The notes under the pieces: generated by a model
Databases searched by the model: none
What the model was told of the DNA's origin: nothing
What the model saw: only the letters and a program-made list of their open reading frames with translations
Program-made: the position numbers and the translations under genes
From: Desulfohalovibrio reitneri
Lineage (GTDB): Bacteria > Desulfobacterota > Desulfovibrionia > Desulfovibrionales > Desulfovibrionaceae
Length of the DNA: 64,000 nucleotides
Direction of reading: 5' to 3'
Assembly: GCF_000711295.1 (NCBI RefSeq)
Contig: NZ_JOMJ01000003.1
Span: 1,499,501-1,563,500 of the forward strand
In this document: in pieces, positions 23,345 to 30,554 of the stretch
Layout of the letters: every line of letters starts with the position of its first letter
How positions within the stretch are numbered: the first letter of the stretch is position 1

Positions 23345-24112
23345 GTGCCGAAAGTGAGAAAAGCCAAGGACGCGGTGGAGGCCATCCTGGCGGACGCCAA
23401 CTGGAGCGAGCGCCTGGGCGAGTTGGATAGCCTGGGGCTGAAACGCGTTTCAGGGGCGTTGTTCTCCCTCATCCTGAGTCCTTCCCCCGCCCTGCGCTGG
23501 CGGGCGCGAAAGGCCTTCGGCAAGGTGGCCGCCGACCTGGACGCGAGCGAGCCGGAGGCCGGGCGGACCATTGTCCGCAACATGCTCTGGCGGCTCAACG
23601 AGGAGAGCGGGGGCATCGGCTGGGGCGTGCCCGAGGCCATGGGCGAGGTGCTGGCCGCAAGCCCCCGACTGGCCGAGCAGTACCACTCCATTCTGCTGTC
23701 CTATGTGCGCGAGCACGACGGCGTCTGCCACGGCAACTTCCTGGACAACCCCGGCCTGCGCCACGGCGTGCTGCGTGGGCTGGTCCGGCTGGCCGAGGCG
23801 CGGCCGGAACTGGTGGCCCGAGGGGCGGCGCACCTGACCAGGGTGCTGGACCCCGGGCTGGCGGCCGAACGCCACCAGGGATCGCCCGAGCAGCACGAAT
23901 GCCACGACGCCCGCGCCCGGGCCCTGGCCTGCCGCGCCCTGGGGCTGGCCGCCGGGAATCTTTCCGGCCAGGCGCTGGAAACGGCGCGCTCCGCCTTGGA
24001 GGCGATGCTGGACGACCGCTCGGAAACGGAGTTGGAAGGCGAGGACGGCATCGGCGAACAGACCACCGTGGCGGCCGAGGCCCAGCGCGCCCTGGACACC
24101 CTGACCGGATGA
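23345..24112 (+). CDS. HEAT-repeat-like protein upstream of dsrA
   Basis: 255 residues from GTG 23345. The sequence is a series of amphipathic helices in pairs (for example ALRWRARKAFGKVAADLD, TIVRNMLWRLNEESGGIGWGVPEAMGEVL, GVLRGLVRLAEARPELV, ARALACRALGLAAG), the pattern of HEAT or phycobilisome-lyase-type repeats, often protein-binding scaffolds. HECHDARARALACRA carries His and Cys residues that could bind metal. Rho-independent termination just after it (24211-24240) separates it from dsrA. Its role is unknown; closeness to dsr is suggestive only. Confidence 0.65.
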   Translation: MPKVRKAKDAVEAILADANWSERLGELDSLGLKRVSGALFSLILSPSPALRWRARKAFGKVAADLDASEPEAGRTIVRNMLWRLNEESGGIGWGVPEAMGEVLAASPRLAEQYHSILLSYVREHDGVCHGNFLDNPGLRHGVLRGLVRLAEARPELVARGAAHLTRVLDPGLAAERHQGSPEQHECHDARARALACRALGLAAGNLSGQALETARSALEAMLDDRSETELEGEDGIGEQTTVAAEAQRALDTLTG

Positions 24113-24303: not shown

Positions 24304-24447
24304 GGGAACTCCATGTTCCTTGAATACACGATCCCGCACGCCGTCCGCCCGCGGCAGCCCATGGCGCGAAACGGGCGGTTTGAAATAGGGATGGCTTCAA
24401 AACAGGGTGCATATGCCCTCAACACCTGACGACGGAGGTACTGGACA

Positions 24448-25761
24448 ATGGCGAAACATGAGACCCCGTTGCTCGACGAGCTGACCAAGGGTCCTTGGCC
24501 GAGCTTCGTTGACGACATCAAGCAGGAGGCCGCCCGCCGCCACGAGAACAAGGACGGCGTGGAGTACCAGATTCCCGAGGATGTCTGCGACGACCTGCTC
24601 GGCGTGCTGGAGCTCTCCTACAAGGACAAGGAGACCCACTGGAAGCACGGCGGCATCGTGGGCGTGTTCGGGTACGGCGGCGGCGTCATCGGACGCTACT
24701 GCGACTCCCCCCAGCAGTTCCCGGGCGTGGCCCACTTCCACACCGTGCGCGTGAACCATCCCTCGGGCAAGTGGTACACCACCGACTACCTGCGCAAGCT
24801 CATCGACATCTGGGACATGCGCGGCTCCGGCCTGACCAACATGCACGGCTCCACCGGCGACCTGGTATGGCTGGGCACCTTCACCGAGCAGCTCGAGGAG
24901 ATCTTCTACGAGCTGACCCACAACATGGAAACCGACCTGGGCGGATCCGGCTCCAACCTCCGTACCCCGGCCGACTGCATGGGCATGAGCCGTTGCGAGT
25001 ACGCCTGCTACGACACGCACGCCCTGTGCTACGCCCTGACGCAGGAGTACCAGGACGAGCTGCACCGCCCCGCGTTCCCCTACAAGTTCAAGTTCAAGTT
25101 CGACGGCTGCCCCAACGGCTGCGTGGCCTCCATCGCCCGTGCGGACATGTCCTTCATCGGCACCTGGAAGGATGACATCAAGATCGACCAGGACGCCGTG
25201 AAGGCCTACGTCGGCGGCGAGCTGAAGCCCAACGCCGGCGCCCACGCCTCCCGCGACTGGGGCAAGTTCGACATCGAGGAAGAGGTCATCAACCGCTGCC
25301 CCACCAACTGCATGAGCTGGGACGGCAGCAAGCTGACCATTGACAACTCCGAGTGCTACCGCTGCATGCACTGCATCAACACCATGCCCCGCGCCCTGCG
25401 CATCGGCGACGAGCGCGGCGCGAGCATCCTCTGCGGCGCCAAGGCCCCGATCCTGGACGGCGCGCAGATGTCCTCCCTGCTGGTGCCCTTCGTGCCCGTC
25501 GAGGACCCCTTCGACGAGGTCAAGGAAGTCATCGAGAACATCTGGGACTGGTGGATGGAAGAAGGCAAAAACCGCGAGCGCCTGGGCGAGACCATGAAGC
25601 GCATGGGCTTCCAGAAGCTGCTCGAGGTGACCGGCACCAAGGCCGACGCCCGGCACGTGCAGTACCCCCGCGAGAACCCCTACATCTTCTGGAAGTCCGA
25701 GGACGTTCCGGGCGGGTTCGAGCGCGACATCCAGGACTTCCGCAGCCGCCACCAGCGGTAG
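24448..25761 (+). CDS. dsrA: dissimilatory sulfite reductase subunit alpha
   Basis: 437 residues, the standard length; ATG 24448 follows GGAGGT. DsrA binds siroheme coupled to a [4Fe-4S] cluster and, with DsrB, reduces sulfite in the cytoplasm, handing the product sulfur to DsrC. Visible ligands are CMGMSRC (CX5C) near residue 176 and CPNGC (CX3C) near 220. The inserted ferredoxin domain has CPTNC near 283 and CYRCMHC near 308. The conserved blocks HWKHGGIVGVFGYGGGVIGRYC and GSGLTNMHGSTGD are intact. It opens the operon dsrA-dsrB-dsrD-dsrN-ycaO. Confidence 0.98.
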   Translation: MAKHETPLLDELTKGPWPSFVDDIKQEAARRHENKDGVEYQIPEDVCDDLLGVLELSYKDKETHWKHGGIVGVFGYGGGVIGRYCDSPQQFPGVAHFHTVRVNHPSGKWYTTDYLRKLIDIWDMRGSGLTNMHGSTGDLVWLGTFTEQLEEIFYELTHNMETDLGGSGSNLRTPADCMGMSRCEYACYDTHALCYALTQEYQDELHRPAFPYKFKFKFDGCPNGCVASIARADMSFIGTWKDDIKIDQDAVKAYVGGELKPNAGAHASRDWGKFDIEEEVINRCPTNCMSWDGSKLTIDNSECYRCMHCINTMPRALRIGDERGASILCGAKAPILDGAQMSSLLVPFVPVEDPFDEVKEVIENIWDWWMEEGKNRERLGETMKRMGFQKLLEVTGTKADARHVQYPRENPYIFWKSEDVPGGFERDIQDFRSRHQR

Positions 25762-25821
25762 CGGACGGTTTATCAGAGGCAGCGTAACAAACTCTAGAAG
25801 ACAACATAGGGAGGAACCCCC

Positions 25822-26967
25822 ATGGCGTTCGTTTCTTCGGGATACAATCCTGACAAGCCGATGGAAAACCGCATCACCGACATCGGCCCCCAAAACTACC
25901 AGAACTTCCTGCCGCCGGTTATCAAGAACAACTACGGCAAGTGGCTGTACCACGAGATCCTGGAGCCCGGCGTGCTCATGCACAAGGCCGAGTCCGGGGA
26001 CGAGGTCTACACCATCCGCGTGGGCACCGCCCGCCTGATGTCCGTCGGCCTCATCCGCGAGATCCTGGACATCGCCGACGCCCACTGCGACGGCTACGTC
26101 CGCTGGACCACCCGCAACAACGTGGAGTTCATCCTGGACTCCAAGGACAAGGTCGAGCCCCTGAAGAAGGACCTTGAGGGCCGCAAGTTCCCCGGCGGCT
26201 CCAACAAGTTCCCCATCGGCGGCACCGGCGCCTCCGTGCCCAACGTGGTCCACACCCAGGGCTGGGTGCACTGCCACACCCCGGCCACCGACGCCTCCGG
26301 CCCGGTTAAGGCCCTCATGGACGAGTTCTACTCCGAATTCCAGTCCATGGAGCTGCCCGCGCCCATCCGCCTGGCCGTGGCCTGCTGCCTGAACATGTGC
26401 GGCGCCTGCCACTGCTCCGACATCGCCGTCGTGGGCATCCACCGCAAGCCGCCGCTCATCGACCACGAGGTCCTGGACGACATCTGCGAGATTCCGCTGG
26501 CCGTCGCTTCCTGCCCCACCGCCGCCATCCGCCCCTCCAAGGTGGAAGTCAACGGCAAGGAAAAGAAGACCGTGGCCATTAAGGAAGAGCGCTGCATGTT
26601 CTGCGGCAACTGCTACACCATGTGCGCCGCCCTGCCCCTGGCCGACGCCGAGGGCGACGGTTGCGCCATCATGGTCGGCGGCAAGGTGTCCAACCGCATC
26701 TCCAACCCCAAGTTCTCCAAGGTCGTGGCCGCCTATGTGCCCAACGAGCCGCCGCGCTGGCCGACCCTGGTGCAGACCATCCGCAAGATCGTGGATGCCT
26801 ACAAGCAGGACGCCAAGAAGTACGAGCGCATCGGCGACTGGGCCGAGCGCATCGGCTGGGAGCGTTTCTTCGAGAAGACCGGCCTGGAGTTCACCGAGCA
26901 CCTGATCGACGACTTCCGCGATCCGGCCTACTACTCCTGGCGCCAGACCACCAACTTCAAGTGGTAG
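25822..26967 (+). CDS. dsrB: dissimilatory sulfite reductase subunit beta
   Basis: 381 residues, preceded by GGGAGG. Partner of DsrA in the alpha2beta2 enzyme. The siroheme/cluster ligands appear in [11 protein letters not shown] near residue 190, with CPTAAIRP near 230, and the ferredoxin domain is [11 protein letters not shown] near 260. The N-terminal part ([26 protein letters not shown]) and the C-terminal [13 protein letters not shown] are typical of the family. It follows dsrA by 60 nt and ends just before a strong hairpin. Confidence 0.98.
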
Positions 26968-26986
26968 TCGCCTGACAGAACGCAAC

Positions 26987-27014: not shown

Positions 27015-27036
27015 ATCACCAAAAAGGAGCGTGGCC

Positions 27037-27279
27037 ATGCCTCTCGACGCAGATCAAGCCAAACAGGAAATCAAGGACTTTCTGAACAAAAAGTCCGGCT
27101 CCAAATCCAAGTTCTACTTCAACGACTTCACCAAGCTTTTCCCCGACGCCAAGTCCCGCGAGGTCAAGAAGGTCCTGACCACCCTCGTCAACGAGGGCGA
27201 GCTGGTCTTCTGGTCTTCCGGCTCCACCACCATGTACAGCCTCCCCGGCGCCGGCAAGCACGCCGAGGGCGAGGACTAG
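27037..27279 (+). CDS. dsrD: DsrD, activator of dissimilatory sulfite reductase
   Basis: 80 residues from ATG 27037, eight bases after AAGGAG; the in-frame GTG at 27031 is too close to that site. The sequence NKKSGSKSKFYFNDFTKLFPDAK and VLTTLVNEGELVFWSSGSTTMYSL is that of DsrD, a small winged-helix-like protein found in sulfate reducers with reductive DsrAB. It was long thought to bind DNA and is now regarded as an allosteric activator of DsrAB. It is the third gene of the operon. Confidence 0.96.
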   Translation: MPLDADQAKQEIKDFLNKKSGSKSKFYFNDFTKLFPDAKSREVKKVLTTLVNEGELVFWSSGSTTMYSLPGAGKHAEGED

Positions 27280-27363
27280 GCAAACGAAACCTCCCGGCCG
27301 CCGGGCCGGGATTTCATAGAGGCCGGGTCGGCAAGGCGCTCCTTGCGGCCCGGCTCTGTCATT

Positions 27364-28790
27364 ATGCAGCACCTCCCGCGCCTCCTCCTGGCAGGGCTGT
27401 CCGGCGGCTCCGGCAAGACCCTGGTTTCCTTGGGCCTGTGCCGCGCCTGGGCACGGAATGGCCTGTCCGTGGCCCCTTTCAAGAAGGGCCCCGACTACAT
27501 CGACGCGGCCTGGCTCTCCCTGGCCGCGGGCCGTCCGGCCACCAACCTCGACACCTTCCTCATGGAGCCGGACGTGGTCCGCGCCCTCTTCGCCGAACGC
27601 ATGCGCACCGCGGAGGTGGGTGTGGTGGAGGGCAACCGGGGGTTGTTCGACGGCCTGGACGAGCACGGCTCCCTGTCATCGGCCGAACTGGCCCGTCTGC
27701 TGCTCGCGCCCGTGGTGCTGGTGCTGGACGCCACCAAGATGACCCGCACCACCGCGGCCATCATCAAGGGCATCAACAATTTCGAGGAAGGCACCAGGCT
27801 GGCCGCCGTCATCCTCAACCGCACAGCGGGCGAGCGCCACCGCACCGTCCTGCGCCGTTCCATCGAGACACACACCCAGGTGCCCATCGCCGGGTTCCTG
27901 CCCAAGATTTCCGACACCCCCATCCCGGAGCGCCACATGGGCCTGTGGTCCGCCCGCGAGATGGACGCCGCGGCCGTGCTGGATCCGGTGGCCGACCTGC
28001 TCCAGGAGTGGTGCGACCTGGACATGCTCCGCCGCACCGCCGAAGGCGCGCCCTCCCTGGCCGAGTCCTCCACTCCGCTGTGGCCGGAATCCCACGGCGG
28101 GGAGCCGGTGCGCATCGGGGTGGTGCGCGACGACGCCCTGTGGTTCTACTACCCGGAGAACCTGGAGGCCTTGGAACGAGCGGGGGCGGAATTGGTCTTT
28201 CTCTCCATTCTGGATGATGAACCCTGGCCGGACATCCACGGCCTCTACATGGGCGGCGGTTTTCCCGAGACCCTGGCCGAGCGCATCCGCGACTGCCAAA
28301 CCCCCGCGACCACGTGTACGGGCTGTGCCAAGCCGGGGTGCCTGTCTACGCGGAATGCGGCGGCTTCCTCTACCTTTGCCGCACCCTGGAATACGGCGGC
28401 CAGTCATACCCCATGTCCGGCGTGCTCCCCCTGGAGGCCAAGGTCGCCCAGCGGCCCAAGGGCCTGGGCTATGTGCACGCCGAGGCGGTGCGCGACAATC
28501 CCTACCACCCCCTGGGGACCAGTCTGCGCGGCCACGAATTCCATTACTCCTTCTGCCCCGGCTCGGCGGACATCGATCCGGATGCATTCTGCCTGCGGCT
28601 GCACAAGGGCTCGGGCATCGCCCGTTCCCGGGAGGAGGCCTGTCCCGGCTTCCAGGGTTCCCTAGACGGACTGGCGCGGGACAACGTCTTCGCCAGCTAC
28701 ACCCACATCCACGCCCTGGGCGCTCCCCACTGGGCCCCGCGCATGGTGGAGGCCGCCAGGGCATACAAGGCCAGAAGGACCAAGGCGTGA
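27364..28790 (+). CDS. dsrN: DsrN: siroheme amidase of the cobyrinate a,c-diamide synthase family, one-base frameshift
   Basis: The N-terminal part from ATG 27364 carries the P-loop GLSGGSGKTLVSLGL, PFKKGPDYIDAAW and VVEGNRGLFDGLDE of CobB/CbiA amidotransferases. The glutaminase half continues in another frame from about 28300: VYGLCQAGVPVYAECGGFLYLC, with the nucleophile Cys in AECGG, and HEFHYS. One base is missing near the AAACCCCC run at 28298-28305; a sixth C restores frame and yields about 475 residues, normal for the family. Located after dsrD it should make siro(haem)amide for DsrAB from siroheme, glutamine and ATP. Because this cofactor is important here, a sequencing error is more likely than true loss. 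It overlaps the next gene (GTGA). Confidence 0.88.
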
Positions 28791-30475
28791 TCGAATACGT
28801 CCTCCGCCACCACCGCACCCAGGCCGGAACAGGCTTCTTCGCCCCAACTCCGGCCGCCCCCATGCATCCCCAGGAAGCCCTGGACCAACTCAAGGCCGCG
28901 CCCAACGACGTCTTTCTGCGCCGCTTCGTCATCTCCCGCATGGGCGAGATGGAGCCGGAAGACTTCGACCAGCTCTGCGCCGGAGCCATCCAGGAGGCCC
29001 CGCACGCCTTCCAGGCCCTACTCTTCGAAAGCGCTCTCTCCCACGAGCGGTTCACCGGCATCGCCGTGCGCTTCGAGGAAGAGGCAGACCGCGAGGCCCT
29101 GGCCGAGGCCACCCCGCTGCCCCTCATCCGGGCCACGCTCCTGGAGGAGGAGGCTTCACACACCCCCTGGCTCGGCCTGTTGGACCAGGCGCGCGAGACG
29201 TTGACCCCCCTGCCCCGGACCATCGCCCGGGGGCTGCCGCCGCCGGTGGACCCGGACGTGGCCCGCGCGGTCCTGTGCCCGGCGGCCACCCTGCCCGAGG
29301 CCTTCGCCGAGCGGTTCGGCGTGGGCAAGCCCGCCCCGGCGGAGCTTCCCGGCCCGGACGAGGTGGTGCGCATGGGGCTGGACGCCCTGGCCCGCATGGG
29401 CCTTTCGGCCGAGGAGGAACAGCGCCATCAGGCGGCTCTCAGCCCGGTGAACCTGCTGCGCAAGTGGCACATGGAGGTGCGGGTGCGCCAGGGCGGGCTG
29501 GACTACGCCCTCTCCGGCGGCCAGACCAGCTACGGCAAGGGGCTGCGGTTGCCCCAGGCGCGCGCCTCCCTGGTCATGGAAATGGTGGAACGGGCCTCCA
29601 GCTACGCCTCCATCACCGACGACGGCCCCCTGGGCTACACCACCCCCATGGGCCTTGTGCGTGGCAGCTACAACGAACTGGCCGACGCCGGGCGCATCGC
29701 CCTGCGGCCGGACTCCCTGCGGCTGGACACACCTTCAGACCACCTGTCCCTTCTCTGGGTGCTCGGCCGGGACGCGGGCGGCGGTGAAATCCTGCTGCCC
29801 GCCCAACTGATATTCCTCTTCTGCAACCTGGACGAGCCTGAGCTGGCCACGGGGCACGACTCCACCGGCCTGGGCGCGGGCGTGACCATGGCCCAGGCGC
29901 GCTTGCAGGGGGTGTGCGAGACGCTGGAGCGCGACGCCGCCGCCCTGGCAGTGCATGATCCTTCCCGCTGCTTCCTGCCCGTTTCCGACGACCCCGAACT
30001 GGCCACCCACCTGGACGCCCTGCGCCAGGCCGGAGTGCAACCTATTCTGGAGGACATCACCTCCCCCTTCGGCGTGCCCGCCTACCGCTGCGTGGTCCGC
30101 CACCAGGACGGGGAGGAAGTCTCCTGGGCCACGGCCTGCCACCCCTCCGGCCCGCGCGCGGCCGTCTCCGCCCTGCTGGAGACCATGTACCCCTTCCCCG
30201 GCGGCGAGCCCTCCGCCCAGCCGCCCGAGGGCCTTGCCGAGCGGCGGATCGAGGACCTGCCGGACCACTCCACCGGCGACCCGGAACAGGATCTGGCCCT
30301 GCTTGAAGAGGTGCTCACCAAGAGCGGGCACCCGCCGGTCTACTGCGACCTCACCCGCGAGGACCTGGCCCTGCCCGTGGTCCGCTGCCTCATCCCCGGC
30401 CTGGAGAACGGCCAGGAACGGCGCGTGGGCGCGCGGCTGTACGGGGCCATCCTGCGCTCCCTGGACGCGGACTAG
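28787..30475 (+). CDS. YcaO-family ATP-dependent amide-activating protein in the dsr operon
   Basis: 562 residues from GTG 28787, which overlaps the dsrN stop. The N-terminal 150 residues are helical and unassigned. From about residue 225 a YcaO domain is recognisable: ALSGGQTSYGKGL, a SLVMEMVERASSY segment with the Mg-ATP-binding glutamates, and ARLQGVCETLERDAAAL, matching the family's ExxERDA block; it ends with VVRCLIPGLENGQERRVGARL. The proline-rich C-terminus of azoline-forming YcaO enzymes is absent. YcaO proteins phosphorylate peptide amides to form azolines or, in methanogens, a thioamide. A substrate in the Dsr pathway is suggested only by gene order. The bidirectional terminator follows. 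Confidence 0.85.
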   Translation: MIEYVLRHHRTQAGTGFFAPTPAAPMHPQEALDQLKAAPNDVFLRRFVISRMGEMEPEDFDQLCAGAIQEAPHAFQALLFESALSHERFTGIAVRFEEEADREALAEATPLPLIRATLLEEEASHTPWLGLLDQARETLTPLPRTIARGLPPPVDPDVARAVLCPAATLPEAFAERFGVGKPAPAELPGPDEVVRMGLDALARMGLSAEEEQRHQAALSPVNLLRKWHMEVRVRQGGLDYALSGGQTSYGKGLRLPQARASLVMEMVERASSYASITDDGPLGYTTPMGLVRGSYNELADAGRIALRPDSLRLDTPSDHLSLLWVLGRDAGGGEILLPAQLIFLFCNLDEPELATGHDSTGLGAGVTMAQARLQGVCETLERDAAALAVHDPSRCFLPVSDDPELATHLDALRQAGVQPILEDITSPFGVPAYRCVVRHQDGEEVSWATACHPSGPRAAVSALLETMYPFPGGEPSAQPPEGLAERRIEDLPDHSTGDPEQDLALLEEVLTKSGHPPVYCDLTREDLALPVVRCLIPGLENGQERRVGARLYGAILRSLDAD

Positions 30476-30496
30476 CTCAGGCCCGCCATGACGAGA

Positions 30497-30530
30497 AAAG
30501 CCCCGCGCATCGCTTGATGCGCGGGGCTTT
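30497..30530. terminator. strong bidirectional Rho-independent terminator
   Basis: AAAGCCCCGCGCATC (30497-30511), loop GCTT, GATGCGCGGGGCTTT (30516-30530), then more T on the plus strand and a T-run also on the minus strand. It closes the dsr operon and the convergent VTT gene. Confidence 0.9.
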
Positions 30531-30554
30531 TTCGTCGTCGCGGACTCCTTGCGC

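Follow-up and report, generated by a model that had tools for sequence, protein, structure and literature searches.

The window analysed here, a 64,000-nucleotide stretch of the Desulfohalovibrio reitneri genome, includes genes of the Dsr system, whose DsrAB works together with DsrC and DsrMKJOP at the key step of sulfate respiration. A gene for a YcaO-domain protein follows dsrN, as the original prediction had stated. The features of the locus are the following:

24448..25761, plus strand: dsrA (open reading frame; TIGR02064, 627.8 bits at G000:C3:1523972-1525228)
25822..26967, plus strand: dsrB (open reading frame of 381 aa; the order dsrA-dsrB-dsrD is the same in 20/20 relatives compared)
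27031..27279, plus strand: dsrD (PF08679, E 5.5e-32)
27364..28303, plus strand: 5' part of dsrN, in frame 1 (CbiA domain and the beginning of GATase_3; PF01656, E 4.3e-17)
28301..28305, plus strand: C5 run at the dsrN frameshift, between the end of frame 1 and the start of frame 3 (read from the sequence)
28304..28790, plus strand: 3' part of dsrN, in frame 3 (remaining GATase_3; PF07685, E 4.8e-17; TGA at 28788-28790)
28773..28779, plus strand: Shine-Dalgarno-like AGAAGGA, 7 nt upstream of the ycaO GTG (read from the sequence)
28787..30475, plus strand: ycaO, 562 aa (PF02624, E 9.1e-46; AlphaFold2 pLDDT 93.3; GTG overlapping the dsrN stop)
30496..30531, plus strand: terminator-like hairpin (16-bp perfect inverted repeat; -39.8 kcal/mol, z -8.3)

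The YcaO protein scored 157.1 bits against PF02624 (curated cut-off 25.7), indicating that it is a member of the YcaO superfamily. Its GTG (28787-28789) does overlap the dsrN TGA, and is credible as the start because Tyr4 of the protein is invariant in 41 sequences. The hairpin at 30496-30531 separates ycaO from a convergent VTT-domain gene. Two minus-strand open reading frames, at 24397-26985 (over dsrAB) and 27676-29397 (over dsrN-ycaO), were taken as high-GC shadow frames. The dsrD-dsrN gap holds a G+C-rich hairpin at 27292-27311. Upstream of dsrA (23345-24112, plus strand) lies a gene for a 255-aa protein without Pfam match, which among the genomes compared also precedes dsrA in Desulfovibrio sp. 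UBA6079 (locus L095) and in genome G139 (locus L075).

The dsrN gene of the assembly is not one open frame: blastx against 29 dsrN relatives placed a frameshift near 28301, the matches leaving frame 1 at about 28287 and resuming in frame 3 at about 28305; no other well-supported break came up in the 100-bp bins open to checking, 218 of 640 (34% of the window). A whole-genome search recovered the gene, the only dsrN of the genome, in two separate frames (502 and 190 bits); elsewhere dsrN was found in one piece in 38 genomes, and in two pieces inside one open frame in 4 more. Since both halves score well and the break falls at the C5 run, a one-base assembly error is the likeliest cause, likelier than a pseudogene; possibly the frameshift is a real lesion. 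Reading the letters as they stand, translation from the dsrN start ends at 28665, short of the ycaO start. Consequently, the translational coupling of dsrN and ycaO that had been proposed keeps its overlap and loses its single dsrN frame, and as drawn depends on the frameshift being an assembly error.

The features of the encoded protein are the following:

28787..29398, plus strand: N-terminal domain, residues 1-204 (predicted beta hairpin followed by helices)
29447..30475, plus strand: YcaO catalytic domain, about residues 221-562 (residues 183-559 align to MjYcaO 6pe3 at VIA-align Z 29.8)
29579..29593, plus strand: codons of E265, E268 and R269 (EcYcaO E75, E78 and R79), invariant in the clade
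29861..29935, plus strand: second ATP motif, S359-D383 (E378, E381 and R382 invariant; V366 and Q370 in place of the usual N and E)

The best fold matches of the predicted model (pLDDT 93.3) were MjYcaO (6pe3/6peu) and next MkYcaO. The N-terminal domain matched no Pfam family and, searched alone, no PDB fold at E under 0.4. All six Mg/ATP residues of EcYcaO (E75, E78, R79, E199, E202, R203) are kept, as E265, E268, R269, E378, E381 and R382, and are invariant in an alignment of 22 clade members, so that the catalytic carboxylates are intact in the predicted protein. The window protein departs at EcYcaO N187 (V366) and E191 (Q370); V/T and Q at these positions are already present in short-branch sister lineages. 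The motif Sx6-7Ex3Qx3ExxER, in the form given in PMC7774982, is incomplete (S184 is Ala/Gly clade-wide, and Q370 of the window protein replaces E191), which does not exclude the protein from the superfamily because YcaO proteins do not keep the motif strictly. The window protein is fast-evolving (end branch of 1.05 in the tree vs about 0.2 in its sisters), has lost most of the usual C-terminal DFDRFSRVSPRLF motif, and has a pI of 4.8 (clade median 5.6). As first noted from the window, the proline-rich azoline C-terminus and a TfuA partner are missing, the former from all clade C-termini examined and the latter (PF07812) from the whole genome.

In YcaO catalysis a nucleophile attacks a backbone amide, which ATP then activates; which product forms depends on the nucleophile, and the substrates of the characterised ones are peptide amides (PMC13063428); folded proteins are among them, namely McrA (PMC5589413) and uL16 (PMC13063428). 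The closest solved fold is that of the methanogen enzyme acting on the McrA glycine (MJ1094; TIGR03266; Z 29.8), which has the same catalytic carboxylates. Methanocaldococcus jannaschii and Methanopyrus kandleri make the McrA thioglycine without TfuA (PMC5589413), and TfuA is likewise absent from the genome analysed here; methanogens also make an amidated tetrapyrrole, via the DsrN homologue CfbB (PMC10504309). TIGR03266 matched 22/22 clade members, the window protein reaching 78.5 bits, below the equivalog cut-off of 365; unlike the methanogen enzyme, it is bacterial, has the extra N-terminal domain and occurs without MCR. The E. coli YcaO has the same fold and is also TfuA-free; in vitro it thioamidates the folded protein uL16 when supplied with sulfide, ATP and Mg (PMC13063428). 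It is a weaker match to the window model (Z 19.7), places its YcaO domain first with an extra C-terminal part, whereas the extra domain of the clade is N-terminal (1-204), and has a pI of 4.4 (PMC13063428). Given these TfuA-free thioamidations in Methanocaldococcus, Methanopyrus and E. coli, the missing TfuA is no argument against thioamidation. The DVU2210-type YcaO-TPR protein of Desulfovibrio, linked to molybdate sensitivity in D. vulgaris (PMC7774982), shares the YcaO domain and the lineage; a paralogue of this type (YcaO domain plus C-terminal TPR repeats) is encoded in the same genome at C3:485249-486172 (locus L001, 907-2640, minus strand). In that type the YcaO domain comes first, followed by C-terminal TPR, with the canonical SAGN..E motif, whereas the window protein has no TPR. 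Azoline-forming RiPP enzymes (SagD, LynD, TruD) share the catalytic domain; against the SagD model (TIGR03604) the window protein scored 86.7 bits, below the cut-off of 219.25, and it lacks their proline-rich C-terminus; no precursor peptide or partner came to light in the searches made for other purposes. By the tests run, the window protein is a YcaO that falls short of the McrA and SagD models, lacks a TfuA partner, reverses the EcYcaO domain order and differs from the DVU2210 type.

In the order to which the organism belongs, the protein was matched in 127/199 genomes, nearly all matches including the clade-specific N-terminal domain (the clade was found at E below 1e-42, other YcaO genes at about 1e-9), and dsrD in 187/199. 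A second order had the clade in 46/184 genomes. Outside the own order, 15/15 ycaO-bearing genomes carry dsrD, vs a phylum-wide background of 39% (p 4e-7 unadjusted; about 1e-3 with the seven families as units). Four genomes without dsrA and aprA (G103, G170, G181, G188) are also without ycaO. Two genomes of the own order (G053, G174) have ycaO without dsrD; they were rejected as true dsrD-less bearers, assembly gaps being the best explanation since both have aprA, and one also has a partial dsrA where a contig ends. By these searches, the clade is widespread in Desulfobacterota and, in the genomes sampled, confined to sulfate reducers. Many dsrD-bearing genomes (e.g. groups g4 and g7) have no ycaO, which is therefore not essential for sulfate reduction. 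The phylogenetic profile against Dsr thus agrees with a link in one direction, every bearer outside the order having dsrD, and not in the other. Four genomes (G092, G118, G163, G167) have dsrD twice, at a spacing of about 5.4-6.2 kb, which suggests a tandem duplication of a dsrABD unit in some Desulfovibrio.

Linkage of ycaO to dsr is mixed. Nearly all ycaO bearers of the own order have the gene at a distance from dsrD. In most Desulfovibrionaceae ycaO is far from dsr, which makes the dsrN-ycaO junction of the window unusual: ycaO follows dsrN in 0/20 relatives compared, where other genes stand at that place or there is no dsrN. A fixed dsr operon gene was consequently rejected, ycaO being elsewhere in these relatives. 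In Desulfovibrio sp. UBA6079, which belongs to the same subclade, the order is dsrA-B-D-N-ycaO, and about 46 nt separate dsrN from ycaO. In the second order ycaO lies less than 10 kb from dsrD in 11/46 bearers, always convergent with dsrABDN; about 0.2/46 would be expected by chance under independence of the genomes, an assumption that does not hold, and this binomial figure does not separate chance from shared descent. Two genomes (G716, G738) with dsrD about 12 kb from ycaO, and divergent, were left out of the 11. Among the sampled loci, ycaO is adjacent to dsrMKJOP as well, being divergent from rsbRD-dsrMKJOP in two lineages: in L097 (3825-11698), with about 219 bp between, and in genome G379 (L200, 3076-18607), where it lies between dsrABDN and dsrMKJO. 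On the tree, the linkage state changes seven times by parsimony. The possibility that other sulfate reducers carry the gene at random positions, which had been named as an outcome against a link, is half borne out, the gene being unlinked to dsr in most Desulfovibrionaceae while adjacency recurs in other genomes; a random position everywhere was rejected after 80 named loci and the second order had been examined. The dsrN overlap in the window does not represent a general rule; ycaO is linked to dsr in several ways, of which this is one.

Other neighbours of ycaO vary by group: rplM-rpsI; an rdgC-esterase block; phoH-ybeY; and tatBC. In about 12 loci of Desulfovibrio and its neighbours (e.g. 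L044, L045, L048, L060, L070) rplM-rpsI is followed by ycaO. In about 13 loci (e.g. L111, L116, L117, L129, L134, L139, L145, L160) tatC directly precedes ycaO, usually with a tatA/B-like gene ahead of tatC. In several Desulfosarcina-like loci ycaO and the convergent dsrN are separated by a gene for a class III cytochrome c (for example L110, 11834-12307, and L129, 11783-12271).

The reading we favour, at a probability of about 0.38, is that the window gene encodes a Dsr-associated protein-modifying YcaO, probably carrying out a sulfide-dependent thioamidation of a Dsr component. Sulfate reducers have ample sulfide. The TfuA-free precedents, the closest folds and this supply of sulfide are what lead to a Dsr-associated, probably thioamidating enzyme; a functional link to Dsr is likelier than the thioamidation chemistry. 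An ATP- and Mg-dependent amide-activating domain would act behind the clade-specific N-terminal domain, which would probably recognise a folded protein. The substrate would most likely be the backbone of one of the proteins of dissimilatory sulfite reduction, be it DsrAB, DsrC or a subunit of DsrMKJOP. Thioamidation is the likeliest modification: sulfide, abundant as the product, could serve as nucleophile, and no TfuA would be required. Our analysis shows the predicted fold, the active site, the restricted occurrence and the repeated dsr adjacency; which protein is modified, that sulfide is used and that a thioamide results are inferences. The functional tie between YcaO and Dsr that was originally proposed thus gains from the dsrD-only occurrence outside the order and from the adjacency to dsrABDN and dsrMKJOP; against it stand the lack of linkage in most Desulfovibrionaceae, the patchy occurrence in sulfate reducers and the rplM-rpsI context of one group. 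The adjacency in Desulfobacterales is not co-transcription, as the genes are convergent, and may be an inherited gene order beside tatBC.

The same facts could come from an ordinary, vertically inherited gene acting on another protein or peptide, with no functional tie and with a dsr adjacency produced by inherited order and rearrangement. We regard this as somewhat unlikely: ycaO is unlinked in most Desulfovibrionaceae, each group has other conserved neighbours (rplM-rpsI, the rdgC block, tatBC, phoH-ybeY) and its presence follows taxonomy in addition to dsr, but adjacency recurs in at least three arrangements, with two different dsr operons, and dsrD is present in all 15 bearers outside the order.

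If the enzyme thioamidated uL16 or some other ribosomal protein, as the E. coli YcaO does, the dsr proximity would be incidental. The genes rplM and rpsI (ribosomal L13 and S9) upstream of ycaO may point to a ribosomal substrate in Desulfovibrio, the E. coli enzyme thioamidates uL16 without TfuA (PMC13063428), and the window protein is acidic (pI 4.8). The domain architecture of the clade is nevertheless unlike that of EcYcaO, its median pI is 5.6 vs 4.4 for that enzyme (PMC13063428), and a universal ribosomal target leaves the dsrD restriction and the adjacency to two dsr operons unexplained, all of which makes this reading unlikely. Taken jointly, a ribosomal target and the lack of any tie are about as likely as the favoured Dsr reading.

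A decaying copy, with dsrN truly frameshifted and a YcaO without normal activity, would account for the dsrN frameshift, the long branch of the window YcaO, V366 and Q370 and the loss of most of the C-terminal motif. This is improbable: the ycaO frame is open at full length with its catalytic carboxylates and arginines kept, the dsrN halves still reach 502 and 190 bits, V/T and Q are found in short-branch sisters, and a break at a C5 run is as expected of an assembly error.

In another version of the original prediction, YcaO would work on the amide that DsrN, a tetrapyrrole amidase (PMC10504309), puts on siroheme, so that the chemistry concerns the cofactor and not a protein. This version draws on the dsrN-ycaO neighbourhood in the window, in UBA6079 and in the convergent arrangement, and is very improbable. 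The characterised YcaO enzymes work on peptide amides (PMC13063428); nearly all sulfate reducers checked have DsrN, even those lacking ycaO, while ycaO is patchy; and in group g3 the genomes with ycaO have their dsrN at a distance from dsrABD. A dependence of ycaO on DsrN was also considered and is uninformative because DsrN is near-universal.

In the open-access literature searched, we found no publication tying YcaO to Dsr or dsrN, the single one that names both YcaO and dsrN being irrelevant, nor one on thioamidation of dissimilatory sulfite reductase. In proteomics, a thioamide is easily mistaken for an oxidation (+15.977 vs +15.995 Da; PMC13063428), and with masses so close a Dsr thioamide could have been overlooked. 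The Dsr-associated reading, if true, would mean that a dedicated modifying enzyme adds a new layer to the heavily studied Dsr system, with a parallel in the thioamide of methyl-coenzyme M reductase. Its most specific form is doubtful: a sulfate-reducer-specific YcaO would place a new modification, probably a backbone thioamide formed with respiratory sulfide, on a catalytic or electron-transfer Dsr protein, as the sulfate-reduction counterpart of the thioamide of methyl-coenzyme M reductase. The clade offers a specific gene to knock out and follow by mass spectrometry, and its dsr adjacency, together with its occurrence only in sulfate reducers in the samples, suggests a chemical fine-tuning of a protein of the respiratory machine.
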